The translations under genes and the position numbers were made by a program. A stretch of 36,382 bases of DNA, taken from Rhodococcus aetherivorans. GTDB taxonomy: Bacteria > Actinomycetota > Actinomycetes > Mycobacteriales > Mycobacteriaceae. Location: contig NZ_JAALEG010000065.1 of NCBI RefSeq assembly GCF_011058165.1, positions 1 to 36,382 of the forward strand, given 5' to 3'. The notes under the pieces were generated by a model. That model was given only the letters and a program-made list of their open reading frames with translations. It was not told the origin of the DNA and did not search any database. Below are positions 9,109 through 34,728 of this stretch, in pieces (position 1 is the first letter of the stretch; every line of letters begins with the position of its first letter).

Positions 9109-9161
9109 CGATCCGGCCCTCGGCTACGGTGACGTAACTGACTTTCGAGTAAGGAGACGTC

Positions 9162-10265
9162 GTGGGACTGTCGGGGACGGCGCAGCGCGCCCTGCGCAAC
9201 GCCTGGGCGCTGTTCGTCGGCGACGGAATCGAACCGCCGCACGCCACCGCGTCGGCCGTCGTCGCCGACGGACCGCACCGTACCCTGCGCCGCTACGGCG
9301 AGCCCGACGCGGGTGCCCCCGTCCTGCTCGTGCCCCCGCTCGCCGCGCCCGCACGCTGCTACGACCTGCGGCCCGGGCAGAGCCTCGTGCAGCACCTCGT
9401 CGACGCCGGCCGCAGCGTCCACGTCCTCGACTTCGGCACCATGGACCGTTCCGACCGGCATCTCGGCTTCGAGCACTGGGTCGACGACATCGTGCCCGAG
9501 GCGATCGCGCGGGTCTCCGAACTGTGCGGCGGCCGCGACGTCGACCTGGGCGCCTGGAGCCTCGGTGGGACCCTGTGCCTGCTCACCGCGGCCGCCCACC
9601 CCGGGCTGCCGATCCGCTCGATCACCGCGTTCGGCACGCCGATCGACTACGCGCGCATCCCCTTCCTGGGGCCGGCCCGCCACCTCGGACGCGCCCTGGG
9701 CGAGCCCGCCCTCACCGCCGTGACCCACCTGCTCGGCGGCGTGCCCGCCCCGCTGGTGCAGATCGGCTACCGGGCCACCGCCCTCGAACGCGAACTGACC
9801 CGGCCGTGGTTCGTCGCCTGCAACCTCGCCGACGCCGACACCCTGGCCCGGATGGAGGCGATCGACCGGTTCCAGGCCGACATGCCCGGCTACCCCGGCA
9901 GGCTGTTCCATCAGATGGCGATGCGCATCACGGTCGCGAACGATCTCGCGACGGGCCGGGTCCGCTTCGACGACCGGACGATCGACCTCGCCGACGTCTC
10001 CGTGCCCGTGCTCGCACTCGGCGGCAGCGACGACGTGCTCGCGCCCGTCCCGGCGGTCGAGGCGATCCGCCGGGTGCTGCCCGGCTCGCCCCACGTGCGG
10101 TTCGAGGTCGTGCCCGGCAGTCACCTCGGGCTGCTCGCCGGCCTCACCGCCCGCGGCACGTCGTGGGCGCACTTCACCGCGTTCCTCGACGACCCGTCGG
10201 CGCCGGTGCCGACGGGTCCCGGCGCGTCAGTCGGGGACGTTGTCCGCGTACCCGAGTTCTCGTAG
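9162..10265 (+). CDS. PHA-synthase-like alpha/beta hydrolase with Ser nucleophile
   Basis: 367-residue alpha/beta-hydrolase of the PhaC-related group: [30 protein letters not shown] and the [11 protein letters not shown] / [12 protein letters not shown] region resemble polyhydroxyalkanoate synthases. The nucleophile elbow reads GAWSLGG, with Ser133 where true PHA synthases have Cys. Asp290/291 (GGSDDVLAP) and His321 (PGSHLG) complete a plausible triad, so a hydrolase or acyltransferase activity is more likely than polymerisation. The GTG start follows AAGGAGA. The 3' end overlaps the convergent HIT gene by 39 bp. Confidence 0.85.
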
Positions 10266-20587: not shown

Positions 20588-21094
20588 TCAGTCGTGGTCC
20601 AGCGCGCCGGCCTTCAGCGCCGCGGCGTTGATGCGGGTGAGCACGTCGTGCAGTTCCTCCAGCTCGGCCAGGCTCACGCCGAGCTTGCGGACGACCGTCT
20701 CCGGGACCGTCGCGGCCCGCGCCCGCAGGGCCCGGCCTTCGTCGGTCAGGTCGACGACGAGTTGCCGCTCGTCCAGCGGGCTGCGGGTGCGGGTGATCAA
20801 CCCGGTCGACTCGAGCCGCTTGAGCAACGGCGACAGGGTGGGGGAGTCCAGCTGCAGGGCCCGGCCGATCTCCTTCACCGACATCGGGGCGTCGCCCCAC
20901 AGGGCCAGCATCACCAGGTACTGCGGGTGGGTCAGGCCGAGCGGCTCGAGCACCGGCCGGTACACCGAGAGCACCGCCCGGTTGGCGACGGCGAGCGCGA
21001 AGCAGACCTGACGGTCCAGGGCGAGCGGGTCGTCCGTCGCCCTCGCCGACCCGGCTTCGACCCCGGCCGACTGCGGGCGGGCCTCCGTGCTCAT
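20588..21094 (-). CDS. ohrR: MarR-family organic-peroxide sensor, OhrR-like
   Basis: 168-residue MarR regulator. LDRQVCFALAVANRAVLSVYRPVLEPLGLTHPQYLVMLALW closely follows the OhrR N-terminal region, with Cys31 at the position of the peroxide-reactive cysteine. The winged HTH (VKEIGRALQLDSPTLSPLLKRLESTGLITRTRSPLDERQLVVDLTDEG) is intact. OhrR represses the thiol peroxidase gene ohr; no ohr is in this window, so either it acts at a distance or on its neighbours. TAGCAT lies 7 nt before the ATG, again a leaderless layout. It is divergent from the Nit1C-type operon and upstream of the MFS gene on the same strand. Confidence 0.85.
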   Translation of the reverse strand: MSTEARPQSAGVEAGSARATDDPLALDRQVCFALAVANRAVLSVYRPVLEPLGLTHPQYLVMLALWGDAPMSVKEIGRALQLDSPTLSPLLKRLESTGLITRTRSPLDERQLVVDLTDEGRALRARAATVPETVVRKLGVSLAELEELHDVLTRINAAALKAGALDHD

Positions 21095-21101
21095 GGTCTC
21101 G

Positions 21102-21107
21102 ATGCTA
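21102..21107 (-). promoter_or_regulatory. -10 element (TAGCAT) for leaderless ohrR
   Basis: The complement reads TAGCAT-N7-ATG without a Shine-Dalgarno. Confidence 0.45.
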
Positions 21108-21204
21108 CCCAACCGGTGACCTGCCCACTGCGGTCGCCTGACACCCGCTGCCGCGCCTCCTCCCGGCGGCGGTGTTACGCGGCGATGACGGGATTCCGGC
21201 CGAT

Positions 21205-21253
21205 GTGAGCTCCACGAAATGCGGCGTTGTTCCAGGGGTGACCAACGCGAAAT
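21205..21253 (+). promoter_or_regulatory. Two GlnR-like half-site pairs upstream of the Nit1C-type operon
   Basis: GTGAG-CTCCAC-GAAAT (21205-21220) and GTGAC-CAACGC-GAAAT (21238-21253). Each matches the actinobacterial GlnR pattern GTnAC-N6-GaAAC at 8-9 of 10 positions; the two begin 33 bp apart, three helical turns. They lie 86-135 bp before the GTG of the first gene, a suitable place for activation under nitrogen limitation. Binding is inferred, not shown. Confidence 0.5.
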
Positions 21254-21339
21254 CGACTGCACGTCTACTGATTGCAGGCCGCAGCCGGGCGAGATCACCG
21301 GCGCGCCCGCCGAATCCACCGATCTCCGAGGAGAACTCA

Positions 21340-21864
21340 GTGACCGACATCGAGCAGACCATCGCCGACAACATCGCCAGGTCCCTGGCCGAGATCCCTC
21401 ATCCGGCACTGCCCAAGGGCACCAACCTCTACGGCTCGACCAAGATCTTCCCCGACTATCGGGCCGAGGACGGCGAGTGCTACTTCACCCTCGTGCACGG
21501 CATCGCCCACGAGTCGTCGGTGAGCTTCGTCGCGGTCCTGCAGGCCACGCGCGCGCTGCGCAAGGGCTTCGAGTCGGCCATCTACTTCTACGGCACCGGA
21601 GCGATGAATGCCGTTGCCACACGCGGCTTCCCGACGACAGGTGACAACGGGTTCCCGGGTGAGCAGAACATCAACGACGCGCTGACCACCTTCATCACGG
21701 AGGGCGGCCAGGTCTTCGTGTGCCGGTTCGGCCTCGCGCTGCACGGGCACCGGGAGGAGGACCTGATCGAGGGCGCCATTCCCGCCCACCCCCTGGACGT
21801 GCAGGACGCGATCATCCACTACGCCCGCAAGGGCGCCATCATCAACTCCACCTACATGGTCTGA
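21340..21864 (+). CDS. MSMEG_0572/Sll0783-family nitrogen-starvation protein
   Basis: 174-residue soluble protein that opens the operon. PALPKGTNLYGSTKIFPDYRAEDGECYFTLVHGIAHESSVSFVAVLQATRAL and the DsrE-like fold pattern (FESAIYFYGTGAMNAVA ... GGQVFVCRFGLALHG) are those of the MSMEG_0572/Sll0783 family. In Synechocystis, Sll0783 is induced by nitrogen starvation and needed for normal polyhydroxybutyrate accumulation; its chemistry is unknown. Cys residues are few, so a DsrE-type sulfur-carrier role is unsupported. GAGGAGA precedes the GTG at 21340. The next gene starts 11 nt after the stop. Confidence 0.88.
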   Translation: MTDIEQTIADNIARSLAEIPHPALPKGTNLYGSTKIFPDYRAEDGECYFTLVHGIAHESSVSFVAVLQATRALRKGFESAIYFYGTGAMNAVATRGFPTTGDNGFPGEQNINDALTTFITEGGQVFVCRFGLALHGHREEDLIEGAIPAHPLDVQDAIIHYARKGAIINSTYMV

Positions 21865-21875
21865 AGGGTGACACC

Positions 21876-22937
21876 ATGAGCGGTCTCTCGACCCGGGTCG
21901 ACCTGGCCGTCCGCGGCATCCGGTCCCTCGAGGCGCCGGTGCACAGGCGTTCCGGCGCCGGCCCGAGCGACGACGGGCACGTCCTGATCGGCGGGGTGGG
22001 CGGCGCGATCCCGATCCGGTCCGACAGCCCGTACACGGTGGACGGCACCCGGCTGCTGCTGGACGGAACGGACATGGGCCTCGACGTCGAGCCGGTGCGC
22101 CGGCCCAGGTTCTACGACCTGCAGACCGCGGACGGCGTCTCCTACGAGAAGATCGCCCGCCTGCACGGCGCCGACGTCCTGGCCACCACCGTGGTGCAGA
22201 CCTGTATCCGGTACGACCCCGACCAGCGCTGCCGCTTCTGCTCGATCGAGGCGTCGCTGGCGGCGGGTTCGACGGTCGCGGTCAAACGTCCCGAGCAGCT
22301 CGCCGAGGTCGCCGCGGCCGCGGTCCGCCTCGACGGGGTCACCCAGATGATCATGACCACGGGCACCTCCGCCGGGACGGACCGGGGCGCCCGCCACCTG
22401 GCCCGCTGCGTGCGCGCGGTCAAGGCGGCCGTGCCGCACCTCGCCGTCCAGGTGCAGTGCGAACCGCCCGGCGATCTCGCCACCCTCACCGACCTGCGCC
22501 GGGCGGGCGCCGACTCGATCGGCATCCACGTCGAATCCCTCGACGACGGCGTGCGCCGGCGCTGGATGCCGGGCAAGGCGGCGGTTCCGCTCGCCGAGTA
22601 CCGGGCGGCGTGGGCCGAGGCCGTGCGCGTCTTCGGGCGCAACCAGGTCTCCACCTACCTGCTCGTCGGACTCGGCGAGGACGCCGACGAACTCGTCGCC
22701 GGAGCAGCCGAACTCATCGCGATGGGGGTCTACCCGTTTGTGGTGCCGTTCCGGCCCCTCGCCGGCACCCTCGCCGTCGACGTCGACGGGGCGGCGGCCC
22801 CCGACGCGACGCTGCTCGAGGACGTCACCCGGCGCGTCGCCGCGCAGCTGCGGGCGGCGGGCATGGCCGGCTCCGACCAGAAGGCCGGATGCGCCGCGTG
22901 CGGCGCGTGCAGCGTGCTGCAGAACGCGGGAGGCTGA
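21876..22937 (+). CDS. Radical SAM protein, MSMEG_0568 family, with C-x8-C-x2-C cluster motif
   Basis: 353-residue radical SAM enzyme of the Nit1C cluster. The cluster-binding cysteines are in CIRYDPDQRCRFCSIE: Cys110, Cys119, Cys122, i.e. C-x8-C-x2-C, not the canonical C-x3-C-x2-C. Barrel strands follow (QMIMTTGTSAGTDRG, VQVQCEPPGDL, GADSIGIHVESLDD, VSTYLLVGLGED). The C-terminus ends with Cys339-x2-Cys342-x2-Cys345, which could bind an auxiliary cluster. The N-terminal ~80 residues are specific to this family. It presumably cleaves SAM to make a 5'-deoxyadenosyl radical; the substrate is unknown. One nucleotide separates its stop from the next ATG. Confidence 0.88.
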   Translation: MSGLSTRVDLAVRGIRSLEAPVHRRSGAGPSDDGHVLIGGVGGAIPIRSDSPYTVDGTRLLLDGTDMGLDVEPVRRPRFYDLQTADGVSYEKIARLHGADVLATTVVQTCIRYDPDQRCRFCSIEASLAAGSTVAVKRPEQLAEVAAAAVRLDGVTQMIMTTGTSAGTDRGARHLARCVRAVKAAVPHLAVQVQCEPPGDLATLTDLRRAGADSIGIHVESLDDGVRRRWMPGKAAVPLAEYRAAWAEAVRVFGRNQVSTYLLVGLGEDADELVAGAAELIAMGVYPFVVPFRPLAGTLAVDVDGAAAPDATLLEDVTRRVAAQLRAAGMAGSDQKAGCAACGACSVLQNAGG

Positions 22938-22938
22938 C

Positions 22939-24372
22939 ATGACATCCGAATCCGGTTCCCGGACCACCGAACTGTTCGACCCCGCGGTGCTCGCCGGTCC
23001 CGCACCGGCGCCGCCGCCCGGCTTCCTCGTGCGCGCGGCGGCCCACGCCGGCGACGTGGCCGCCTACCACCGGCTGCGCCGCGAGACGTTCGTGCTCGAG
23101 CAGGGACTGTTCGCGGGCAGCGACCGGGACGACCTCGACGACGATCCCCGCACCGTCGTCCTGGTCGCTGCCGCACCCGACGGCGCCGTCCTCGGCGGGG
23201 TGCGGCTCGCCCCGGCCACCGACGGCGTGGACCTCGGCTGGTGGACCGGCAGCCGCCTGGTCGTCGACAGCCGCAGCCGCCACGGCGGCGGCATCGGCCG
23301 GGCCCTCGTCCGCGCGGCCTGCGCGTACGCCGAGTCCCACGGCGTGCTGCGCTTCGACGCGACCGTGCAGGCACCCAACGAGCCGATGTTCACCCGACTC
23401 GGTTGGGTCCGCCGGGACGACGTCGTCGTCGCCGGTGCCCCGCATGTGCTGATGCAGTGGCCGCTCGACCGCATCGAACGGCTCGTCCGGTCCACGAAAT
23501 CGGTCCTGGCGCAGGTCTTGGCGCCGTTGGACCGGGATCCGGACGGGCTCGGTGGCAACGGGTTTCGTGGCGACGACGGTGCGCCCGTCCCCGGCAGCGA
23601 CCTCGTCGCGGCGTGCGACGCGATCGTGCCGGCGATGGTCCAGCGCGATCCCGAGTGGGCGGGCTGGTGCGCGGCCCTGGTCAACCTCAACGACCTGTCC
23701 GCGATGGGTGCGACGCCGGTCGGGATGCTCGACGCCGTCGGCGCCCCCAACCGCTCGGTGCTCACCCGCGTGCTCCGCGGGCTGGCGCACGCCGGCCGGA
23801 TGTGGAACGTGCCGATCCTCGGTGGCCACACCCAGCTCGGCGTCCCCGCCGCGCTGTCGGTCACCGCGCTCGGCGCGGCGGCCGAGCCGATCCCGGCGGG
23901 CGGTGGCTCCGCGGGCCACGACCTCCGCCTCACCGTGGACCTGCGCGGCCGGTGGCGACCGGGATACACCGGACAGCAATGGGATTCCACCTCGACGTGC
24001 ACGTCCGAGGAGCTCGCGCTGCTCGGGTCCTTCGTCCGCCGCGCGCGGCCGGCGGCGGCCAAGGACGTGAGCATGGCCGGACTCGCCGGCACCGTCGGGA
24101 TGCTGGCCGAAGCGAGCGGCGTCGGCGCCGTCCTCGACGTCGCGAGGATTCCCCGGCCGGCGGGCCCGACGATGGGCGACTGGATGGCGTGCTTCCCGGG
24201 CTTCGCGATGGTGACCGCGGACCGGCCCGGACGCCCCACGCCGCCGAGCGGACCGGCCGTGTCCGCGGTGTGCGGGGAACTGACCACACGACCGGGGGTC
24301 GGCCTGCGCTGGCCCGACGGCATGATCACGAACGCGGTGCACGGCACCGTCACAGGATTGGGAAGAGCATGA
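22939..24372 (+). CDS. GNAT acetyltransferase - AIR synthase-related fusion (MSMEG_0567 type)
   Basis: 477-residue two-domain protein. Residues ~28-180 are a GNAT fold: YHRLRRETFVLEQGLF, the acyl-CoA loop in SRSRHGGGIGRALVRAACAYAESHG (R/Q-x-x-G-x-G/A type), and FTRLGWVRRDDV. Residues ~185-477 resemble the PurM/ThiL/SelD ATP-binding superfamily: ALVNLNDLSAMGATPVGMLDAVG, ILGGHTQLGVPAALSVTALG and a glycine-rich C-terminus. In Nit1C clusters of cyanobacteria and pseudomonads the two parts are, as I recall, separate genes (the AIR-like part being Sll0787), so this is the actinobacterial fused form. The ATP-dependent substrate is unknown. It overlaps the nitrilase start (ATGA). Confidence 0.87.
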   Translation: MTSESGSRTTELFDPAVLAGPAPAPPPGFLVRAAAHAGDVAAYHRLRRETFVLEQGLFAGSDRDDLDDDPRTVVLVAAAPDGAVLGGVRLAPATDGVDLGWWTGSRLVVDSRSRHGGGIGRALVRAACAYAESHGVLRFDATVQAPNEPMFTRLGWVRRDDVVVAGAPHVLMQWPLDRIERLVRSTKSVLAQVLAPLDRDPDGLGGNGFRGDDGAPVPGSDLVAACDAIVPAMVQRDPEWAGWCAALVNLNDLSAMGATPVGMLDAVGAPNRSVLTRVLRGLAHAGRMWNVPILGGHTQLGVPAALSVTALGAAAEPIPAGGGSAGHDLRLTVDLRGRWRPGYTGQQWDSTSTCTSEELALLGSFVRRARPAAAKDVSMAGLAGTVGMLAEASGVGAVLDVARIPRPAGPTMGDWMACFPGFAMVTADRPGRPTPPSGPAVSAVCGELTTRPGVGLRWPDGMITNAVHGTVTGLGRA

Positions 24373-25316
24373 GCGAGATCGGAATCTCGGTCGCGGCGGC
24401 GGAATTCGGCCGCGACATGGAGCAGTCCTACGCGACGATCGCGGCACTGATCGACCAGGCCCGCGCCCGCGGCAGCGACCTGCTGGTGCTGCCCGAAGCG
24501 TGCCTCGGCGGGTACCTGCCGAGCCTCGGCGGTGGCGACGAGAGCGAGGCGGCGCGGGAGCGGCGCCTGCGCGCGCTGCCGCCGGCGCTCGCACTCGACG
24601 GACCGGAACTGCGGCGGGTCGTGGACCTCGCCGGCGACCTCGTGGTGACCCTGGGCTTCTGCGAGGCCGACGGGCCGACCCGCTACAACGCGGCCGTGAC
24701 GCTGCACGGCGACGGCATCCTCGGCTCCTACCGCAAGGTGCACCAGCCGCTGGGCGAGAACCTCTGCTACGACGCCGGCGACCGCTACGCGGCGTTCGAC
24801 ACGCCGATCGGCCGGATGGGCATGCAGATCTGCTACGACAAGGCGTTCCCCGAGGCCGCCCGCGCCCTGGCCCTCGACGGCGCGGAGATCGTCACGTCGC
24901 TGTCCGCCTGGCCGACGGCCCGGACCGCGCAGGCCGCGGCTCTCGCGGACGATCGGTGGACGCAGCGCTTCGACATCTACGACCGGGCCCGGGCCACCGA
25001 GAACCAGGTGGTGTGGGTGGCGTCCAACCAGGCCGGCACCTTCGGGTCGCTGCGGTTCGTGTGCAGCGCCAAGATCGTCGGGCCGGGTGGGGAGATCCTG
25101 GCGACCACCGGCACCGACCCCGGCCTCGCGTCCGCCCGGCTCGACGTGCGCGCCGAACTCGACGCGATCCGCGGCGGCGGCATGTACAACCTGCGGGACC
25201 GGCGGCCCGAGGTCTACGGCGACGTGGTGGCCCCCAACCTGGTGACCGGGACGCAGCTGAGCCGCGAGCAGCGGCCGGCGTCCCTCCGCGGCGCAGGTGT
25301 GCCGGCCCATGCCTGA
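24369..25316 (+). CDS. Nitrilase (Nit1 / sll0784 type), catalytic triad intact
   Basis: 315-residue carbon-nitrogen hydrolase. Triad: Glu43 in LPEACLGGYLPS, Lys123 in YRKVHQPLGE, Cys155 in MQICYDKAFPE. The Tyr after the catalytic Cys and the long N-terminal insertion after LPEACLGG fit branch-1 nitrilases of the Nit1 group, not amidases. Predicted reaction: nitrile + 2 H2O to carboxylate + NH3; in Pseudomonas, Nit1C nitrilase is tied to growth on cyanide as nitrogen source. It probably forms helical or dimer-based oligomers, as the family does. The start overlaps the GNAT-AIR stop, and its end overlaps the next gene by 8 nt. Confidence 0.92.
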   Translation: MSEIGISVAAAEFGRDMEQSYATIAALIDQARARGSDLLVLPEACLGGYLPSLGGGDESEAARERRLRALPPALALDGPELRRVVDLAGDLVVTLGFCEADGPTRYNAAVTLHGDGILGSYRKVHQPLGENLCYDAGDRYAAFDTPIGRMGMQICYDKAFPEAARALALDGAEIVTSLSAWPTARTAQAAALADDRWTQRFDIYDRARATENQVVWVASNQAGTFGSLRFVCSAKIVGPGGEILATTGTDPGLASARLDVRAELDAIRGGGMYNLRDRRPEVYGDVVAPNLVTGTQLSREQRPASLRGAGVPAHA

Positions 25317-25653
25317 AATGACCTACACGGTGCGGTGGCCCGACGGCCGCGCCGGCGAGTACTACTCGCCGTCCCTGGTGATGCACGACCATCTGACCGC
25401 GGGCGCGGAGTACGCCGTCCGGGACTTCGTCGACCGCACTCGCCTGGCCCTCACCGAGGCGAGCGAACGCGTGCGCGTCAAGTTCGGCATGTACTGCACC
25501 TCCGCGGCCGCGACACTCGCGGAGATCGAGGCGGCGGCCGGTCGTTACGAACCCGATGCCGTCGTGCGGGTGCTGGCCCTGGATCCGCCCACCGTCGACG
25601 CCGCGCCGGGCGGCGCCGGCGCAGCCCACCGACCGGAAGGAACAGTCCGATGA
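25309..25653 (+). CDS. MSMEG_0570-family nitrogen-starvation protein
   Basis: 114-residue small protein whose start, PEMTYTVRWPDGRAGEYYSPSLVMHDHL, is the hallmark of the MSMEG_0570 family found in Nit1C-type clusters. The first ~90 residues are compact, with alternating strands and helices and a single Cys63 (MYCTSAAATL); the last ~20 residues are Ala/Gly/Pro-rich linker. No enzymatic motif is visible. The ATG at 25309 is preferred over the in-frame ATG at 25318 because it keeps the family's PEM opening and the usual overlap with the nitrilase gene. Its stop overlaps the flavoprotein start. Confidence 0.83.
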   Translation: MPEMTYTVRWPDGRAGEYYSPSLVMHDHLTAGAEYAVRDFVDRTRLALTEASERVRVKFGMYCTSAAATLAEIEAAAGRYEPDAVVRVLALDPPTVDAAPGGAGAAHRPEGTVR

Positions 25654-26906
25654 TCGAGAACCGTGACGTCGTCGTCGTGGGCGGGGGCCAGGCCGGTCTG
25701 TCCGTCAGCTGGCACCTCGTGCAGCGGGGCATCGACCATGTGGTGCTCGAACGGGACGGCATCGCCCACGAGTGGCGCGACAGCCGGTGGGACAACTTCA
25801 CCCTCGTCACCCCCAACTGGCAATGCAACCTGCCCGGCTACAGCTACCGCGGCGACGATCCGGACGGGTTCATGACCCGCGACGAGACGTACGCGTTCGT
25901 CCGCGGCTACGCCGGCACCTTCCACCCGCCGGTGCGCGAGGGCGTCGCGGTCACGTCGGTGACGCAGGCGGCCGGCGGCGGCTTCGATGTGCAGACCACC
26001 GCAGGCCCGATCCGGGCGCGGCAGGTCGTCGTCGCCACCGGCGGCTACCACGAGCCCGTGGTGCCGCGGTACGCGGAGAAGCTGCCCGCGCACCTCACCC
26101 AGCTGCACTCCTCGCGGTACAGGTCGGCGTCCGCGCTGCCGGACGGTGCGGTGCTGGTGGTCGGCAACGGGCAGTCCGGCGCGCAGATCGCCGAGGACCT
26201 CATGCTCGCCGGCCGGCAGGTCCACCTGGTGACCGGGAGCGCACCGCGGGTGGCGCGGTTCTACCGCGGGCGGGACTGCGTGGCCTGGCTGCACGACATG
26301 GGCACCTATGACGTGCCCATCGCCGAACACCCCGGCGGAACCGCCAAACGGGAGAACACCAATCACTACGTCACGGGCCGCGACGGCGGTCGCGACATCG
26401 ACCTGCGGTCCTTCGCCCTCGAGGGGATGCGCCTCTACGGCAGGCTGCTCGGTGTGGACGACGGAGTGCTGCGTGTGGCGCCCACCCTCGGCGCGTCGCT
26501 CGACGCGGCCGACGCCGTGGCCGAGAGCATCAAGGACATGATCGACGACCACATCGCGCGGGAGGGCATCGACGCCCCGCCGGAGGAGCGGTACGTCCCG
26601 GTGTGGCGACCCGCCGAGGAACCCACCGGCCTGGACCTGGACACCGCCGGGATCGGCTCGGTGATCTGGTCGATCGGATTCCGGACGAACTACCGCTGGC
26701 TGCACGCCGGGGTCTTCGACGGTGCCGGTCTGCCGTGCCACAATCGGGGCGTGACCTCGGTGCCCGGCCTGTACTTCCTTGGCCTGCCCTGGCTGCACAC
26801 GTGGGGATCGGGACGGTTCGCCGGAATCGCCCGCGACGCCGAACACCTCGCGGACCGGATCGAGCTCGAGGCCGGACTGCGGGCCTCGATCGGCGCCCCG
26901 GCCTGA
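25650..26906 (+). CDS. Flavin-dependent monooxygenase-like protein (MSMEG_0569 family)
   Basis: 418-residue FAD/NADPH flavoprotein. FAD motif VVVVGGGQAGLSVSWHL at ~8-24; a second Rossmann motif VLVVGNGQSGAQIAEDLML at ~164-182 for NADPH. WRDSRWDNFTLVTPNWQCNLPGY and VVVATGGYHEPVVP are typical of the FMO/Baeyer-Villiger-like group; the C-terminus has VIWSIGFRTNYRWLH and GLYFLGLPWLHTWGSGRFAG, the MSMEG_0569 signature region. It likely oxygenates or N-hydroxylates a pathway intermediate. The ATG overlaps the preceding stop (ATGA); 10 nt separate it from the second nitrilase gene. Confidence 0.9.
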   Translation: MIENRDVVVVGGGQAGLSVSWHLVQRGIDHVVLERDGIAHEWRDSRWDNFTLVTPNWQCNLPGYSYRGDDPDGFMTRDETYAFVRGYAGTFHPPVREGVAVTSVTQAAGGGFDVQTTAGPIRARQVVVATGGYHEPVVPRYAEKLPAHLTQLHSSRYRSASALPDGAVLVVGNGQSGAQIAEDLMLAGRQVHLVTGSAPRVARFYRGRDCVAWLHDMGTYDVPIAEHPGGTAKRENTNHYVTGRDGGRDIDLRSFALEGMRLYGRLLGVDDGVLRVAPTLGASLDAADAVAESIKDMIDDHIAREGIDAPPEERYVPVWRPAEEPTGLDLDTAGIGSVIWSIGFRTNYRWLHAGVFDGAGLPCHNRGVTSVPGLYFLGLPWLHTWGSGRFAGIARDAEHLADRIELEAGLRASIGAPA

Positions 26907-26916
26907 CGGGCGCCGC

Positions 26917-27765
26917 ATGACGCGCATCGCCGCCCTGGCCGGTCACTTCGGACGCGACGTGCCGCGGGCCCTGCTCAAACTGGAGACCCTGATCGAGTCC
27001 GCGCGACGGGACCGCATCGAGCTGCTGGTGCTGCCCGACGCGTGCCTCGGCGGGTACATCTCGGACCTGCGCCGGCCCGACCCGGACGACCTGCCGCCCG
27101 CACTGTGGCGGGACGGACCCGAACTCGACGCGCTCGCCCGGATGGCGGGCGAGATGACCGTGTGCGTCGGCTACACCGAACGGGACGGGGATCTGCGGTA
27201 CAACGCCGCCGCCTGCGTCACCGGCGACGGGATTCTCGGCACCCACCGGAAGGTGCACCAGCCGGCCGGGGAATTCCTCGCCTACGCGCCGGGCGACCGG
27301 TTCGAGGCGTTCGACACCCCGGTGGGCCGCATGGGGATGCTGATCGACTACGACAAGACGTTCCCCGAGTCCGCCCGCACGCTGGCGCTGGACGGCGCAC
27401 GGATCGTCGCCGCGCTGTCGGCGTGGCCCGCGAGCGTCACCGACCGGGCGGCCCGGCTGCCGCAGGACCGGCAGTCCCGGCTGTTCGACCTGTACGACGC
27501 GGCCCGCGCCGCCGAGAACCAGGTCGTGCTCGTCTCGTCCAATCAGACCGGGATGCAGGGCGGCATGCGCTTCCTCGGGCAGGCGAAGATCGTCGGCCCG
27601 GGTGGCGAGGTGCTCGCCCGCACGGGCACCAAGGGCGGGCTCGCCGTCGTCGACATCGACGTCGAGGTCGAGGTGGAACGGGCCCGCCGGGTGCTGCACC
27701 ACCTGGCCGAGCGGCGCGTGGACACCTATCGGGGACTGCTCGACGAGAAGGGGGACATCGGGTGA
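26917..27765 (+). CDS. Nitrilase paralogue lacking catalytic Glu and Cys (probable pseudoenzyme)
   Basis: 282-residue carbon-nitrogen-hydrolase fold, clearly a paralogue of the nitrilase at 24369 (both share DGILG-x-x-RKVHQP, GRMGM, YDK-x-FPE, ENQVV and KIVGPGGE). Two of the three catalytic residues differ: the Glu position is Asp41 (LPDACLGGY) and the nucleophile Cys position is Asp144 (MLIDYDKTFPE, codon GAC at 27346-27348). Lys112 is kept. The reading frame is intact and in-operon, so the fold appears maintained: a regulatory or structural subunit, or a new activity, is more likely than a decaying gene. Hydrolysis of nitriles by the usual Cys mechanism should not be possible. The stop overlaps the next start (GTGA). 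Confidence 0.9.
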   Translation: MTRIAALAGHFGRDVPRALLKLETLIESARRDRIELLVLPDACLGGYISDLRRPDPDDLPPALWRDGPELDALARMAGEMTVCVGYTERDGDLRYNAAACVTGDGILGTHRKVHQPAGEFLAYAPGDRFEAFDTPVGRMGMLIDYDKTFPESARTLALDGARIVAALSAWPASVTDRAARLPQDRQSRLFDLYDAARAAENQVVLVSSNQTGMQGGMRFLGQAKIVGPGGEVLARTGTKGGLAVVDIDVEVEVERARRVLHHLAERRVDTYRGLLDEKGDIG

Positions 27766-28880
27766 GGATCGCTCTGCTCACGTACTCCACCAAGCCGCGC
27801 GGCGGTGTCGTCCACACCCTCAATCTTGCCGAGGCCCTGGCCCGGACGGGCCACGACGTCGCCGTGTGGACGCTCGGGCGCGGCGGCGACGACGGGTTCT
27901 TCCGCGCCGTCGACCCGGCCGTGCGGGTGCGCGTCGTCCCGTTCGCCGGGGTGGAGGGGGGGGGGGTCGGGGAGTGCATCATGCGTTCGATCGCCGCGCT
28001 CGGCGCGGCGTTCACCCCCGGCAGGTACGACGTGGTGCACGCGCAGGACTGCATCAGCGCCAACGCCGTCGGAAACCGGTGCATCCGCACGATCCACCAC
28101 CTCGACCGGTTCACCACGCCGCAGCTCGCCGCCTGTCACGAACGGGCCGTCGCCGAACCGTATGCGCGGATCTGCGTCTCGCGTGCGGTCGCCGAGGAGG
28201 TCCGCGCGGGCTGGGGTTTCACGCCCACGGTCATCGCCAACGGCGTCGACGCGCACCGCTTCTCGCGCGCCGAGCAGGACAGGGCGGCGCGGGCCCGGTG
28301 GCGGGCGCAGCTGGGGGAGTACGTGCTGGCCGTCGGTGGCATCGAGCCCCGCAAGGGCAGCATCGATCTGGTGGAGGCGTTCGCCCTGCTGCGCCGTGAG
28401 CGGCCCGGGATGCGGCTGGTGTTCGCCGGCGGCGAGACGTTGTTCGACTACCGGCCGTACCGAGCCGAATTCGACCGTCGCTGCGCGGAACTGGGCGTGG
28501 ATCCGACGATCCTGGGGACGGTGGCCGAGGACGCGCTGCCGGCGTTGGTCGCGCAGGCGTCGGTGTTCGCGTTCCTGTCCACGAAGGAGGGCTTCGGGCT
28601 CGCCGCGATGGAGGCCTTGGCCGCCGGAGTGCCCGTGGTGGCGCGGGATCTGCCGGTGCTGCGCGAGGTGTTCGGCGACACCGTCCGGTTCGCGTCGACG
28701 CACCGGGAGATGGCCGGCGCCCTCACCGAGCCGCCCGTCGCCGCGCGGACACACCGGGGGCGGGCGCTCGCCGCGGCCCACACCTGGGACGACGCGGCGG
28801 CCGCGCACCTCGCGTTCTACCGCTCCGTCGTGCACCTGCAACCCGCGGAGCACTCCCGGGATGCGGCCCGGGGTCAGTGA
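27762..28880 (+). CDS. GT4-type glycosyltransferase (MSMEG_0565 family)
   Basis: 372-residue GT-B glycosyltransferase closing the operon. The N-terminal half has RIALLTYSTKPRGGVVHTLNLAEALARTGHDV (acceptor-side glycine loop) and DVVHAQDC. The C-terminal half has VLAVGGIEPRKGSIDLVEAF, the donor phosphate-binding region, and EGFGLAAMEALAAGVPVVARDLPVLREV (EX7E motif, retaining GT4). No membrane segment, so it is cytosolic. It carries a run of 11 G at 27956-27966, translated EGGGVG, a potential slippage site. The GTG overlaps the nitrilase paralogue's stop; the 3' end overlaps the convergent response regulator by 7 bp. Its sugar acceptor is unknown, although a glycosylated product is implied. Confidence 0.9.
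   Translation: MRIALLTYSTKPRGGVVHTLNLAEALARTGHDVAVWTLGRGGDDGFFRAVDPAVRVRVVPFAGVEGGGVGECIMRSIAALGAAFTPGRYDVVHAQDCISANAVGNRCIRTIHHLDRFTTPQLAACHERAVAEPYARICVSRAVAEEVRAGWGFTPTVIANGVDAHRFSRAEQDRAARARWRAQLGEYVLAVGGIEPRKGSIDLVEAFALLRRERPGMRLVFAGGETLFDYRPYRAEFDRRCAELGVDPTILGTVAEDALPALVAQASVFAFLSTKEGFGLAAMEALAAGVPVVARDLPVLREVFGDTVRFASTHREMAGALTEPPVAARTHRGRALAAAHTWDDAAAAHLAFYRSVVHLQPAEHSRDAARGQ
27956..27966 (+). repeat. G11 homopolymer in the glycosyltransferase gene
   Basis: Eleven consecutive G at codons ~65-69, in frame as written. A gain or loss of one G would truncate the protein. Either a contingency (phase-variable) tract or a place for sequencing error; no other run this long was seen in the window. 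Confidence 0.85.
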
Positions 28881-29581
28881 CCGGCGGGCCGGTAGCGGCG
28901 GACCGGTCGGCCGGTGCCGCCGTATTCGAGACGCAGTTCGAGCAGGCCTGCGTCCAGGTAGTGCTCGAGGTAGCGGCGCACGCTCACCCGCGACAACCCG
29001 GCCAGCTCCGCGCACTCGGTGGCGGACAGTTCGCCGCGGGCGCGGACCGTGTCGAGGATCAGCCGGCCGGTTTCGGCGCTCAGACCCTTCGGCAGCCGTA
29101 CGGGTTCGGCGGCCTTGCCGCCGGCACCGAACAGGGAGTCGATGAACGTCTGGTCGGCGCTCGTCTGGGTCGCGAGCTCGTGCGCTCGGCGCCGGAAGTG
29201 CTCGAGCTTCTCCCGGAGCTGCGCGTACTCGAACGGCTTGACCAGGTAGTCGGTCGCTCCGCCGTGCAGGGCGCGACCGACGGTGTCGATCTCCCGGGCG
29301 GCGGTGATCATGATGACGGCGACGGCGTCGCCCTCGGCGCGCAGCCGCTGAAGGACGTCGAGTCCCGACATGTCGGGCAGGTAGACGTCGAGCAGGAGGA
29401 GGTCGGGTGCGGTGGTCCGCGCGGCGTCGAGCGCCTCCGCGCCGCTGTGTGCCACCGCGACCGTGGTGAATCCCTTTGTCCGGTCCACGAATCGACGGTG
29501 GATCTCCGCGACCATGAAGTCGTCGTCCACGACGACGACCTTGTGCGTCGCCGCCTCGTCCGATCCTGGACGGTCGTGCAT
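28874..29581 (-). CDS. CitB/DcuR-type response regulator
   Basis: 235-residue response regulator. The receiver has VVVVDDDFMVAEIHRRFVD (acidic pocket), phosphoacceptor Asp65 (LLLLDVYLPDMSGLDVL) and Lys115 (DYLVKPFEYAQLREKL). The C-terminal part is the short CitT/DcuR helix-turn-helix (TECAELAGLSRVSVRRYLEHYLDAGLLELRLEYGGTGRPVRRYR), not an OmpR winged helix. Two nucleotides separate it from its kinase upstream, so they form one operon. Divergent orientation of that operon to tctCBA points to control of the transporter. It is convergent with the glycosyltransferase gene. Confidence 0.94.
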   Translation of the reverse strand: MHDRPGSDEAATHKVVVVDDDFMVAEIHRRFVDRTKGFTTVAVAHSGAEALDAARTTAPDLLLLDVYLPDMSGLDVLQRLRAEGDAVAVIMITAAREIDTVGRALHGGATDYLVKPFEYAQLREKLEHFRRRAHELATQTSADQTFIDSLFGAGGKAAEPVRLPKGLSAETGRLILDTVRARGELSATECAELAGLSRVSVRRYLEHYLDAGLLELRLEYGGTGRPVRRYRPAGH

Positions 29582-29583
29582 GG

Positions 29584-31209
29584 TCAGCCATCCTTACTGC
29601 GCGGGATGTGGACGGTGAACAAGGCGCCGCCGGTGACCGGGGCATCGGAGACGGTAGCCGATCCGCCGTGCTGGGCGCTGACCAGTCGCACCAGCGCCAG
29701 TCCGACCCCGCGTCCCCCGGGCGTGTCGGGTTTGGACGTGACGCCCCGGGCGAAGATCTCCTCCCGCAGGGAATCGGGCACGCCGGGACCCGAATCGGCG
29801 ACCTCGACCGTGATGCCGTCGGAGTCGGTGATGCGGACGGAGATCCGCGCGTCCCGCCCGCCCTGCGACACGTCGACGGCGTTGTCGACGAGATTGCCGA
29901 GGACGGTGATGACGTCGGTGGCGAGTTCGGGGTCGAGGGCCCGCAGGCGCGAATCGGGCTCGAGGACCAGGGTCACTCCGGTCTCCGCGGCGAGCGATGT
30001 CTTCGCGATGAGCAGGGCGGCCACGGCGGGGTCGGAAATACGCTGCGTCACAGCGTCACTGATTTCCGCTCGGCGCCTGGTGAGAGTTCCGACGAAGTCG
30101 GTGACGGCGTCGTAGTCGCCGAGTTGGGTGAGCCCCGAGATGGTGTGGAGCTGATTGGCGAATTCGTGGGTCTGGGCCCGGAGGGTGTCGGTGACACTCT
30201 TGTGCGACGACAGCTGGCTCTGCAGCGACGCCAGCTCGGTGCTGTCGCGCATCGTGGTGACGGTGCCGATCCGCTGTCCCCGGCTCGTCGCGGTCCGGCG
30301 ACTGAGCGCCAGCACCCGGGACGCCGTCGACAGCACGACGTCGCCGCTGTCGTCCCCGCTGAGCAGGTACTGACGGACCGCGGGTTCGAGGTCGACGTCG
30401 TCGACGCGGCGGCCGACGGCGTCCGCGGTGAGGTCGAGCAGCTCCTGTGCGCTGTCGTTGAGAACGGTGATGACGCCCTCGGTGTTCACCGCCACCACGC
30501 CCTCGCGGATGTTGTGCAGCAGCGCCTCGCGGTGGTCGGCGAGGTTGGCGATCTCGGCGATCTCGAGCCCCCGGGTGTGGGTCTTGATCCGTCGCGACAA
30601 CAGCCACGAGCCGAGGAGCCCGAGCCCGGCGCCGATGCCGAGATACAGCAGCAACCGGGCTCCGGCGCTGCTGAGGAGGTCCCACAGGGACGGGTAGTCG
30701 TCGCTCACCGCCACGATCGCGAGCACGGACCCGGCCGGCGACAGGATCGGGACGTGTCCCGCGATGGCCCGACGGCCGTCGACGACCACGTCACCGGACC
30801 AGGCCCGGCCGGTGGCCACGTCGCTGGCCCCGAGTTCCGCAGCCGCGCCGAGCCGGGTCGGGTCCGACGACACGAGGACCGTGCCGTCGGCGGTCACGAT
30901 CTCGGCGAGCGTCGCCCCGGACAGGTTCACGGCGCGGTCCACTTCGGGCGCGAGAACCGTGCCGGCGGACGGTGCGGACAGCAGTTCCCGCACCACGGGC
31001 GTCGAGGCCACGTTCTCGGCGACCGCGATCATCCGCTGACCCTGCAGGTCGCGGAATCCGACGGTCGACTGGTGCACCGACACCGCGGCGACCGCCAGCA
31101 GCACCACCGCCACGACGGCGAGCTGAAGGAGCAGAACCTGCCCGGCGAGGCTGCGGATACGGAGGGGACGTGGTGACCACAATGAACTCAAGTTCCGTTT
31201 CGTACTCAA
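29584..31209 (-). CDS. CitA/DcuS-type sensor histidine kinase
   Basis: 541-residue membrane kinase. TM1 is at ~22-44, an extracytoplasmic PASC/CitA-like sensor at ~45-182 (GQRMIAVAENVASTPVVREL; VSSDPTRLG), TM2 at ~186-204, and a cytosolic PAS at ~225-325 (NIREGVVAVNTEGVITVLNDSAQELL). SPOB-like phosphoacceptor His348 is in TLRAQTHEFANQLHTISGL, and the ATPase has NLVDNAVDVS, VADSGPGVPD and GGRGVGLALVRL. This family binds citrate or C4-dicarboxylates outside the cell. The start is uncertain: the only in-frame candidates are TTG codons (31209 used; 31191 possible), with no clear ribosome-binding site. Confidence 0.9.
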   Translation of the reverse strand: MSTKRNLSSLWSPRPLRIRSLAGQVLLLQLAVVAVVLLAVAAVSVHQSTVGFRDLQGQRMIAVAENVASTPVVRELLSAPSAGTVLAPEVDRAVNLSGATLAEIVTADGTVLVSSDPTRLGAAAELGASDVATGRAWSGDVVVDGRRAIAGHVPILSPAGSVLAIVAVSDDYPSLWDLLSSAGARLLLYLGIGAGLGLLGSWLLSRRIKTHTRGLEIAEIANLADHREALLHNIREGVVAVNTEGVITVLNDSAQELLDLTADAVGRRVDDVDLEPAVRQYLLSGDDSGDVVLSTASRVLALSRRTATSRGQRIGTVTTMRDSTELASLQSQLSSHKSVTDTLRAQTHEFANQLHTISGLTQLGDYDAVTDFVGTLTRRRAEISDAVTQRISDPAVAALLIAKTSLAAETGVTLVLEPDSRLRALDPELATDVITVLGNLVDNAVDVSQGGRDARISVRITDSDGITVEVADSGPGVPDSLREEIFARGVTSKPDTPGGRGVGLALVRLVSAQHGGSATVSDAPVTGGALFTVHIPRSKDG

Positions 31210-31210
31210 G

Positions 31211-31226
31211 AGTGACGTGACTCACT
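31211..31226. promoter_or_regulatory. Inverted repeat in the 67-bp kinase-tctC divergent gap
   Basis: AGTGA-CGTGAC-TCACT: perfect 5-bp arms, 6-bp spacer, centred between two divergent operons. A plausible operator for the CitB-type regulator. Confidence 0.4.
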
Positions 31227-31276
31227 GACGGGTTCAGTATTGCCGAAGGTCACATTTTTCGGCGAAAGAAGGAACG

Positions 31277-32266
31277 ATGTCCAGGACAGCCGGCGGAGGC
31301 CGCGTACGTGCGGTCCTACTGCTCGTGCTCGCGGGGATTCTCGTTGCCGGATGCGGCGTCACCCGCGGCGAGGACGAGGGTCTGCACCGGGTGCGGATGA
31401 TGGTTCCCAACAGCCCCGGCGGAGGCTACGACCTCACCGCCCGGACGGCGGTGAAGATCATGGAGGACGACGGCATCACCGGCCGCGTGGAGGTCTTCAA
31501 CGTCATCGGCGCAGGCGGAACGGTGGCGATGGCCCGGCTCATGAACGAGGCGGGCAACGACGACCTCATGATGATGATGGGCCTCGGGGTGGTCGGCGCC
31601 GGCTACACGAACGGCTCGACGGCCCGGGTGTCCGACGCCACGGCCCTGGCCAGGATGGTCGAGGAGCAGGAGGGCATTCTCGTCCCCGCGGACTCGCCGT
31701 TGCGCACCGTCGACGACTTCGTCGCCGCGTGGCGCGCCGACCCGTCGGCGATCACGATCGGCGGTGGATCGTCACCCGGAGGTCCCGACCACCTGTTCCC
31801 GATGGAGACGGCACGTGCGGTGGGAGTGGATCCGAAGGCAGTGAACTTCGTGTCCTACGACGGCGGCGGTGATCTGCTGACCGCGCTGCTCGGCGAGAAG
31901 ATCACCGCGGGCACGTCGGGGCTCGGCGAGTACGTCGACCAGATCGAGGCGGGCCAGGTCCGGGTCCTCGCGGTGTCGGGCAACGAGCGCGTTCCCGGCA
32001 TCGACGCACCGACGCTCCGTGAGGCGGGCATCGATCTGACCTTCACCAACTGGCGCGGAATCCTTGCGCCGCCCGGAATTTCGGACGAGGCCAAGGCGGC
32101 AATGGTGGAGGCGCTCGCGAAGTTGCACGACACCCCGGCATGGAAGGAGGCTCTGGTGAAGAACGGGTGGAGCGACGCGTTCGCGACCGGACCGGAGTTC
32201 GAGCGGTTCCTCGAAGAGCAGGACGAGCGGGTTTCGTCCACGCTGTCCGAGCTGGGGCTCGCATGA
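31277..32266 (+). CDS. tctC: Tripartite tricarboxylate transporter substrate-binding lipoprotein
   Basis: 329-residue TctC/Bug-family binding protein. The N-terminus is a lipoprotein signal with lipobox LVAGC (Cys at ~26), anchoring it outside the membrane. MMVPNSPGGGYDLTARTAVKIM, NVIGAGGTVAMARLMNEA, WRADPSAITIGGGSSPGGPDHLF and FVSYDGGGDLLTALLGEKITAGTSGLGEY are the ligand-binding regions of the family. Ligands are carboxylates such as citrate, tricarballylate or aromatic acids; which one is unknown. AAGGA lies 4 nt before the ATG. The gene leads an operon with tctB, tctA and a universal stress gene. Confidence 0.95.
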   Translation: MSRTAGGGRVRAVLLLVLAGILVAGCGVTRGEDEGLHRVRMMVPNSPGGGYDLTARTAVKIMEDDGITGRVEVFNVIGAGGTVAMARLMNEAGNDDLMMMMGLGVVGAGYTNGSTARVSDATALARMVEEQEGILVPADSPLRTVDDFVAAWRADPSAITIGGGSSPGGPDHLFPMETARAVGVDPKAVNFVSYDGGGDLLTALLGEKITAGTSGLGEYVDQIEAGQVRVLAVSGNERVPGIDAPTLREAGIDLTFTNWRGILAPPGISDEAKAAMVEALAKLHDTPAWKEALVKNGWSDAFATGPEFERFLEEQDERVSSTLSELGLA

Positions 32267-32787
32267 GTACGCGGGCAGCGGCCGATGCGACGCCGGCCCG
32301 CCGGATGAAGGATCCGGCCCAGTTCGTCGTCTGCGGTGTGCTCGTGGCGGTGGGAGTCTTCCTGATCGTCGACGCGCTCACTCTGACAGCGGGTTTCGTC
32401 AAGATCGACCCGGTGGGGCCTCGGCTGTTCCCGATGGTCGTCGGCACCGGACTCGTCGTCTGCGCGGTGGCGCTCGCAGCGGCGATCCTGTGGGGATCGA
32501 CCGGCGAGGAGGACGGCGGAGAGGACGTGGACCTGTCGTCGCCCGGGGACTGGCGCACGGTCGGGCTGCTGGTCGCGTTGTTCGTCGCGACGATCGCCCT
32601 CGTCGGCCCGCTGGGGTGGGCGATCACCGGAACCCTGTTGTTCGCCGGCGCCGCGACGGTCCTGGGAAACAGGCACTACGTGCGCAGTCTCGTGATCGGG
32701 GCGGTCCTCGGGTTCGGCAGCTTCTACGCATTCTACGTCGGGCTCGGAATACCGCTGCCCGCAGGCATTCTGGACGGAATTCTGTGA
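32263..32787 (+). CDS. tctB: Tripartite tricarboxylate transporter small membrane subunit
   Basis: 174-residue TctB. Four hydrophobic segments: ~23-43 ([19 protein letters not shown]), ~58-80, ~98-120 and ~125-160. [22 protein letters not shown] is the conserved family segment. The acidic stretch [10 protein letters not shown] between helices 2 and 3 should be cytosolic. It forms the membrane complex with TctA. The ATG overlaps the tctC stop (ATGA), and tctA follows after 1 nt. Confidence 0.93.
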
Positions 32788-32788
32788 C

Positions 32789-34339
32789 ATGGACACATTG
32801 ACCTGGCTGCTGCAGGGGTTCGAGCAGGCGGCGACCCCGATGAACCTGCTCTACGCGTGTCTCGGTGTCCTGCTGGGGACCGCGGTCGGAGTACTGCCGG
32901 GCATCGGGCCCGCGATGACGGTGGCGCTGCTGCTGCCCGTCACCTACAACGTGAGCCCGAGCGCCGCGTTCATCATGTTCGCCGGCATCTACTACGGCGG
33001 AATGTACGGCGGGTCGACGACCTCGATCCTGCTCAACACCCCGGGGGAGTCGTCCTCCGTGATCACCGCGATCGAGGGCAACCGGATGGCGAGAGCCGGG
33101 CGCGCGGCGCAGGCCCTCGCCACCGCCGCCATCGGCTCGTTCGTCGCCGGATCGATCGGCACGATGCTGCTGGTGCTCTTCGCTCCCGCGGTGTCGCGCT
33201 TCGCCGTGACTCTCGGTGCGCCGTCGTATCTGGCGATCATGCTGCTCGCGCTGGTCGCCGTCACCGCCGTCCTCGGCAGTTCCAAGCTCCGGGGCTGCAT
33301 CTCGCTGTTCCTGGGCCTCGCGATCGGACTGGTCGGAATCGACTTCCTCACCGGGCAGCCCCGCGCCACCTTCGGCATTCCGCAGCTGTCCGACGGCATC
33401 GACATCGTCGTCGTCGCGGTCGCGGTGTTCGCGGTCGGTGAGGCGCTGTGGGTGGCCGCGCACCTGCGCCGCCGCCCCGCCGAGGTCATCCCGGTCGGCC
33501 GTCCGTGGATGGGCCGCAGCGACTGGAAGCGGTCGTGGAAGCCGTGGTTGCGCGGCACCGCATACGGATTCCCGTTCGGTGCGCTGCCGGCGGGTGGTGC
33601 CGAGCTGCCGACCTTCCTCTCGTACATCACCGAGAAGAAGCTGTCGAAGCACAAGGACGAGTTCGGCAAGGGCGCCATCGAAGGCGTCGCGGGACCGGAG
33701 GCGGCGAACAACGCCTCCGCGGCGGGCACCCTCGTGCCGATGCTGTCGCTGGGTCTGCCGACCAATGCGACCGCCGCGGTGATGCTGACCGCCTTCGTGT
33801 CGTACGGAATCCAGCCCGGGCCGACGCTGTTCGAGAAGGAACCGCTGCTGATCTGGACGCTGATCGCGAGCCTGTTCATCGGCAACTTCCTCCTGCTCGT
33901 CCTCAACCTTCCCCTCGCCCCGCTGTGGGCCAAGCTGCTCCGCACGCCCCGGCCGTATCTGTACGCCGGCATCCTGTTCTTCGCCGCGCTCGGCGCGTTC
34001 GCCGTCAACCTGCAGTGGCTCGACCTCGCCCTGCTGCTGACGTTCGGCCTGCTCGGGCTCATGATGCGCCGGTTCGGTCTTCCGGTCCTGCCGTTGATCA
34101 TCGGGGTGATCCTCGGGCCGCGCATCGAACGCCAACTCCGCCAGAGCTTGCAGCTCGGGGGCGGCGACTGGGGCAGCCTCGTCACCGAACCCGTCGCCAT
34201 CGTCGTCTACATCGTCATCGCACTGCTGCTCGTCGCGCCGCTCGCCGCCCGGTTCGTCCACTCGCGCCGGCCTGCCGTGATTCCGGCCGGCACCCCCGGT
34301 GACGACTCCAGCGAGACCCGAGAGAAGGCCCACGCATGA
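32789..34339 (+). CDS. tctA: Tripartite tricarboxylate transporter large membrane subunit
   Basis: 516-residue TctA with ~11-12 membrane helices. Family hallmarks: [78 protein letters not shown] and [26 protein letters not shown], the two pseudo-repeats carrying glycine/proline-rich ion or substrate loops. Sodium- or proton-coupled uptake of the carboxylate delivered by TctC is the known family role. Its stop overlaps the universal stress gene start (ATGA). Confidence 0.96.
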
Positions 34340-34728
34340 TCGTCGTCGGATTCACCCCGGACCGGTACGGCGGAGCCGCCGTCGACCACGGCATCGCCGA
34401 GGCCCGGTTGCGCGGCACCTCACTGCTCGTGATCAACACCTCCAGGGGCGATGCCCTCGCCGACCGGTCGTTCGCCGCCCGGGCACAGCTCGAGGCGCTG
34501 GAGGAGAAGTTGTCCGGAAGCGGCGTCGAGCACGAGATCAGGCAGACGGTCGGCGACGAGACCGTCGACGTGATCCTGGACGCCATGGAGCCCGACGAGG
34601 CGCAACTGCTGGTGATCGGGGTCCGCGACCGCACACCCGTCGGCAAGTTGCTTCTCGGCAGTACCGCCCAGCGGCTGCTGCTGTCCTGCCGCAAACCGGT
34701 GCTGGCGGTCAAGCCCGAGGAGGGGTGA
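34336..34728 (+). CDS. Universal stress protein (UspA family)
   Basis: 130-residue single-domain Usp. The Rossmann-like start [22 protein letters not shown] and the end [37 protein letters not shown] contain the nucleotide-binding G-x2-x-G-x9-G-S/T region of ATP-binding Usps, although the loop [15 protein letters not shown] replaces the usual second Gly with Asp. Translationally coupled to tctA, so it may tune transporter use to energy or stress state; that is inference from coupling. Family members are cytosolic dimers. Confidence 0.9.

Follow-up and report, generated by a model that had tools for sequence, protein, structure and literature searches.

A 36,382-nt stretch of Rhodococcus aetherivorans DNA (contig NZ_JAALEG010000065.1, positions 1–36,382; hereafter the window) carries a gene, here called A, that encodes a nitrilase-fold protein without the catalytic Glu and the nucleophilic Cys. 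A lies in an eight-gene cluster together with a paralogue, gene B, in which the catalytic residues are intact. We consider A to be an ancient pseudoenzyme of the nitrilase superfamily and most likely a non-catalytic, ligand-binding accessory subunit of the cluster, a reading drawn from sequence comparison to which we give a probability of roughly 0.55. Judged by its residues, A is unable to use the nitrilase mechanism, yet it is kept with its pocket across the class.

A is an uninterrupted reading frame of 282 amino acids. The gene and the codons of its active-site positions are located as follows.

26917..27765, + strand: gene A, nitrilase-fold protein without catalytic Glu and Cys; MSMEG_0566 orthologue by synteny
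27037..27039, + strand: codon of Asp41, position of the catalytic Glu
27250..27252, + strand: codon of Lys112, the catalytic Lys, kept
27271..27273, + strand: codon of Glu119, the second active-site Glu, kept
27346..27348, + strand: codon of Asp144, position of the nucleophilic Cys

Catalysis in the nitrilase superfamily needs Glu, Lys and Cys, and the usual C-N bond cleavage does not occur without the Glu and the Cys. Among the residues of the active enzymes, A has Lys112 and Glu119, while the catalytic Glu and the nucleophilic Cys are absent. The PF00795 (CN_hydrolase) profile matches A at 130 bits (gathering score 23.2). A fails the TIGR04048 model of the Nit6803/NitC nitrilases (26.9 bits against a cut-off of 502.6) and the aliphatic amidase model NF009802 (19.1 bits against 427). 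The predicted structure of A has a mean predicted local distance difference test score (pLDDT) of 92.4 and a predicted template modelling score of 0.92 (the B model has a pLDDT of 87.6). It shows the nitrilase alpha-beta-beta-alpha fold, with the nucleophile elbow kept and a helix (residues 144–148) that begins at Asp144. The top fold matches are PH0642, an archaeal nitrilase, a plant N-carbamoylputrescine amidase and other C-N hydrolases. PH0642 and the plant amidase are among the nearest solved relatives of A in both sequence and fold; they have Glu-Lys-Cys, whereas A lacks the Glu and the Cys. An earlier description of this DNA made from its letters (the sequence-only reading) had proposed Asp41 for Glu and Asp144 for Cys with Lys112, the fold and the frame kept, which the alignment and the profile and fold matches confirm.

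Conservation was examined in 80 named loci, the best 80 of at least 403 confirmed, and in regions from further genomes, all annotated with the eight window proteins. Most of the named loci come from Rhodococcus, Nocardia, Gordonia, Williamsia and Mycobacterium; the others include one locus each titled Amycolatopsis and Aeromicrobium. The alignment of A contains 103 clean rows, among them the window and some almost identical sequences (L038 and L137 do not differ at all); two rows of a third paralogue type (L173 and L174) were removed from A, and five truncated or misaligned B rows were dropped prior to counting. All 103 rows have Asp144, Lys112 and Glu119. At position 41, Asp stands in 96 of them, Gly in 4 and His, Tyr and Gln in one each; Glu never occurs there. 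In 39 A rows checked separately (20 of them from genomes outside the 103; window excluded), Lys112, Glu119 and Asp144 are all kept, and position 41 is Asp in 32, Gly in 5 and His in 2. Because position 41 varies, the conserved feature of A, as read from these rows, is the change of Cys to Asp144 and not an Asp pair. On the question raised by the sequence-only reading, whether Asp/Asp is conserved across two-copy clusters, Asp is invariant at position 144 and variable at position 41. The positions that differ invariantly between A and B are 144 (Asp in A, Cys in B), 186 (Gln, Trp), 189 (Leu, Arg) and 265 (Glu, Asp).

Selection on A is comparable to that on B. Ratios of nonsynonymous to synonymous substitution rates (dN/dS) were taken over pairs with dS from 0.15 to 1.2; since the pairs are not independent, the values are descriptive and not tests. 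A has a median dN/dS of 0.209 (2213 pairs) and B one of 0.22 (2083 pairs); over the 1613 pairs common to both, the medians are 0.214 and 0.230, respectively. For the neighbouring families, abbreviated here by their MSMEG numbers, the medians are 0.261 (0565), 0.197 (0568), 0.295 (0569), 0.289 (0567) and 0.102 (0572). A and B are about equally conserved inside Nocardia, the R. opacus group, Mycobacterium and Gordonia. Comparison of Nocardia with Mycobacterium gives identities of 71% for A, 57% for B and 59% for 0569. The stable pseudoenzyme of the sequence-only reading is supported, as one under selection, by an Asp144 found in every clean orthologue and a dN/dS like that of the intact B. A strain-specific decay of A was rejected by the 103/103 and 39/39 rows together with dN/dS.

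In the main tree of 63 rows (columns 41 and 144 were retained in all trees), A is a single clade of 24 rows with a support of 100/95. Five intact solo enzymes, all from genomes of distant actinomycetotes, form its sister (98/86), and the next group out comprises B and the third-type paralogues. The same branching order appears in a quick tree, and an earlier tree that lacks the solo enzymes also has A as one clade, L206 included. The five sister enzymes carry Glu-Lys-Glu-Cys; no other cluster gene was found near them in the fetched stretches, one of which (L229) starts near a contig end. Changes that set A apart from these sister enzymes include Cys144Asp, the loss of Glu41 and His/Gln189Leu, while Gln186 is common to both. 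The deepest A (L222, genome G772) has Asp41, Lys112 and Asp144, with Asp in place of Glu119. One A clade, an intact sister and the state of this deepest member indicate that the Glu and the Cys were lost once, early, in the A lineage and that Asp144 was fixed afterwards. Intact close relatives, which had been named as evidence of decay, do not occur among the clean orthologues; intact forms appear only in the distant sister clade. On this phylogeny A matches the definition of a pseudoenzyme, with a catalytic loss fixed across orthologues and intact relatives as outgroups. Decay within this family takes the form seen in the third-type paralogues (L173 in genome G060, L174 in genome G047), which are nested in B and have lost the Lys/Glu loop; L173 (7031 on) retains Glu and Cys, whose places are taken by Asp and Gly in L174 (6907 on). 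The f89 family clusters (L224, L225 and L230) contain one intact C-N hydrolase each, and A and 0565 were not found in their fetched stretches, of which L224 begins at a contig end.

A belongs to an eight-gene, + strand cluster with the order 0572-0568-0567-B-0570-0569-A-0565. The families 0572, 0568, 0567, 0570, 0569 and 0565 stand adjacent, each above its NCBIfam cut-off. The seven genes other than A are as follows.

21340..21864, + strand: MSMEG_0572/Sll0783 family protein, NitB-like (NCBIfam model)
21870..22937, + strand: MSMEG_0568 family radical SAM protein, NitD-like (NCBIfam model)
22939..24372, + strand: MSMEG_0567, GNAT fused to a C-terminal AIR-synthase-like part, NitE and NitF-like (NCBIfam; start set by eye)
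24369..25316, + strand: gene B, paralogue with intact Glu, Lys, Glu and Cys, MSMEG_0571-type (synteny, alignment)
25297..25653, + strand: MSMEG_0570 family protein, NitG-like (NCBIfam; real start perhaps slightly downstream)
25650..26906, + strand: MSMEG_0569 family flavin-dependent oxidoreductase, NitH-like (NCBIfam; co-evolves with B)
27762..28880, + strand: MSMEG_0565 family glycosyltransferase (NCBIfam; likely start GTG)

TIGR04049, the separate AIR model for sll0787, reaches 164 bits in the window, short of its cut-off of 321. The stop of A overlaps the likely GTG start of 0565 by 4 bp, and A stands directly before 0565 in 100 of 102 annotated A-bearing loci.

Six candidates were scored per genome in a class sample of 393 genomes. 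Of these genomes, 49 match: A occurs in 33, of which 32 have B as well, and the other 16 have B without A. In each of the 33 the A copy was read, and the 16 B-only cases were fetched and annotated. In a sample of 61 genomes of relatives, all 12 matching genomes have both A and B. f30 genomes without A mostly also lack 0570 and 0569. A and B lie on separate large contigs in two genomes (G027 and G448), and in three loci (L054, L058 and L107) B is outside the cluster with 0569 adjoining, the copy of L107 being just upstream on the same contig. The record of L054 is titled Kitasatospora arboriphila, and its A groups with Williamsia A, so the title may be mislabelled. Between B and 0565, where others have 0570, 0569 and A, L159 has at 8018-9616 a different FAD-type oxidoreductase reading frame, as judged by eye. 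Within the genus, 17 genomes (G001–G017) gave neither A nor B at E <= 1e-40, while the matches to A in named Rhodococcus records are at about 75–81%; the cluster is patchy and is also found on Rhodococcus plasmids, and in one plasmid record A is annotated as 'carbon-nitrogen hydrolase family protein'.

Co-evolution was measured by distance correlations over 83 loci, the partial values being those after removal of 0568. The correlation is 0.93 (partial 0.79) for B-0569, 0.75 (0.21) for A-B, 0.80 (0.33) for A-0565 and 0.72 (0.41) for A-0572. B and 0569 can move as a unit, with or without 0570 (B-0570-0569 or B-0569), separately from the other cluster genes, and in Mycobacterium and Gordonia they appear to have been exchanged together without a matching change in A. 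By these measures the data tie B to 0569 and not specially to A, whose partner may be B, 0565 or another protein.

The history shown by these data runs as follows. A lineage with intact relatives lost its catalytic Glu and Cys once, and Asp became fixed at the Cys position, while strong selection stayed on the fold, Lys112, Glu119 and Asp144, with A retained near-constantly in the MSMEG_0565-0572 cluster beside the glycosyltransferase. The carboxylate of Asp144 may pair with Lys112 and replace the lost charge, which would keep the pocket folded and charged. A could then bind an amide- or nitrile-like pathway intermediate or product without turnover and support the enzymes of the cluster in a non-catalytic part, as subunit, sensor or hand-over protein. 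A fuller version, to which we would give somewhat less than an even chance, has a class-wide actinobacterial pseudonitrilase clade with an invariant Asp for Cys, whose Lys-Glu-Asp pocket would bind a metabolite of nitrogen starvation and which would work in the MSMEG_0565-0572 pathway as a sensor or a prozyme subunit. Several observations weigh against the accessory role. The 16 B-only genomes also hold 0565, so by gene content some versions of the cluster can do without A. In one genome (G084, 98% complete) A stands alone, with neither a B nor a 0565 protein above the cut-off. This orphan (L157, 8342-9205) keeps Asp41, Lys112, Glu119 and Asp144 and is not explained by a purely accessory role. 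The pocket proposed for A rests on conservation, and its Glu119 is an Asp in L222. Furthermore, two genomes have kept third-type paralogues without the Lys/Glu loop, so retention alone is no proof.

A more specific form of the accessory-subunit explanation, possible but doubtful, makes A a prozyme: itself an inactive paralogue, it would join B in a mixed dimer or oligomer by way of the dimer helices usual in nitrilases, and would activate or stabilise B. Helices 150–158 and 185–201 of A, which correspond to these dimer helices, sit within strongly conserved segments. B is present in 32 of the 33 A-bearing class genomes and in all 12 of the relatives, even on a different large contig from A in G027 and G448, although genetic linkage by itself accounts for much of this co-occurrence. 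Dead paralogues that activate a live one are reported for trypanosomatid DHS (PMC3663545) and AdoMetDC (PMC6221367); the arrangement resembles A beside B, but complex formation and activation are reported there, while A is known here from sequence. The greater Nocardia–Mycobacterium divergence of B and 0569 than of A, the 16 genomes with B and no A, and the one with A and no B speak against such a pair. Fusions of A with a neighbour, A-B included, were sought as a partner clue, and none was found in the scanned loci. The exchange of B and 0569 without a change in A and the A-B partial correlation of 0.21, as against 0.79 for B-0569, disfavour a tight A-B pair. The proposed oligomer partnership with B therefore stands as a possibility that the co-evolution data do not favour.

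An enzyme with a different chemistry, in which Lys112, Glu119 and Asp144 act as acid-base residues or Asp144 as the nucleophile, is unlikely. It would fit the invariance of these residues in 103/103 rows, the kept nucleophile elbow and a dN/dS equal to that of B. However, the general-base position 41 is not conserved, Glu119 is replaced in the deepest A, and residue 189, which is Arg, His or Gln in the intact relatives, is Leu in A. Enzymes of the nitrilase superfamily are not known to function independently of Cys. The idea of an Asp pair as a new catalytic device is weakened by the Gly, His, Tyr or Gln at position 41 in 7 of 103 rows and the Gly or His in further genomes. Although the family does contain decaying paralogues (L173 and L174, without the Lys/Glu loop), we regard A as a decaying relic, annotation artefact or sequencing artefact as having a negligible chance: this is refuted by the conservation data, with all three residues in 103/103 clean rows and a dN/dS of about 0.21.

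The window cluster is, by its gene families, an actinobacterial relative of Nit1C, of the MSMEG_0565-0572 type. Its companion families are common to Nit1C (sll0783-0787, nitBCDEFGH) above NCBIfam cut-offs. Nit1C, as described in Podar 2005 (PMC1199592) and a Pseudomonas study (PMC11049912), has a single nitrilase, of subfamily 1 in the former; in contrast, the window cluster has two other C-N hydrolases and no TIGR04048 protein. The complete Mycobacterium/Mycolicibacterium loci among those annotated have the order 0572-B-0570-0569-0568-0567-A-0565, in agreement with the MSMEG locus numbering (L082, a record titled Mycobacterium MAG, has the Rhodococcus order instead), and from this synteny A is probably the orthologue of MSMEG_0566. 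The M. smegmatis operon MSMEG_0565-0572 ("gpr") is GlnR-induced at nitrogen starvation and required for peroxide resistance (PMC6039565), with a GlnR site listed upstream of MSMEG_0572 (PMC3662644). MSMEG_0566 and MSMEG_0571 are up 8.94-fold and 48-fold, respectively, at nitrogen starvation (PMC4222082) and listed as changed under nitrogen limitation (2.96 and 4.06; PMC4617892). MSMEG_0566 is there called a putative aliphatic amidase and a possible contributor to nitrogen assimilation (PMC6039565); in contrast, the mycobacterial A rows here, to which it is matched by synteny, lack the Glu and the Cys. The 'cyanide/nitrile operon' of the sequence-only reading is not borne out: in 20 genomes carrying A and/or B no protein exceeds the TIGR04048 cut-off, and in M. 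smegmatis the cluster is the nitrogen-starvation operon just described. In full-text searches, which covered few subscription papers, none of the papers listed was recognised as a description of a Cys-less nitrilase-superfamily paralogue in this cluster.

If A cannot hydrolyse, the amidase reading of MSMEG_0566 as a nitrogen supplier (PMC6039565) would be wrong, and models that count A as an ammonia source should drop it. Current annotation calls the A clade a hydrolase or amidase. A, which has intact outgroups and whose orthologues span about ten named genera, is a well-resolved natural case of catalytic Cys loss. The published descriptions considered here leave the pathway of the MSMEG_0565-0572 cluster open, and a conserved non-catalytic binder, if true, would be a handle to fish out its intermediate and partners.

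A and B share 54% identity, and the next-best match in the same genome is at 29%. Glu-Lys-Glu-Cys is present in 107 of 112 B rows, the remaining five being truncated or misaligned. B also fails TIGR04048 (43.1 bits against 502.6), and by this model A and B both fall outside the NitC/Nit6803 nitrilases. The models for N-carbamoylputrescine amidase and archaeal nitrilase match all 77 members of a joint alignment of A and B (A1), with best E values of 1.8e-33 and 1.7e-31, but A and B of the window fall far short of either cut-off. By its sequence, B is therefore a C-N hydrolase with intact catalytic residues, and the label 'active nitrilase' is a guess. A selenocysteine read-through from B into 0569 has been proposed (PMC6039565). 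As a conserved feature this was rejected: B ends with TGA in 80 of 80 loci, but only 25 of the 80 have an open, in-register frame into 0569.

Upstream of the cluster, a one-mismatch GlnR site lies at 21238-21253. Such sites are not enriched in the window (17 against 19 expected), and this is the single near match before the cluster. An OhrR/MarR-type regulator gene (20588-21409, - strand; below the cut-off of the OhrR model) is divergent to the cluster. OhrR-like genes were matched in three scanned loci only and in none of these adjoin the first gene of the cluster, most loci holding little upstream DNA; a conserved regulator at this place is not supported by these loci. On the other side, 28874-34728 contains a DcuS/DcuR-like two-component system, a TctC-TctB-TctA tricarboxylate transporter set and a universal stress protein.
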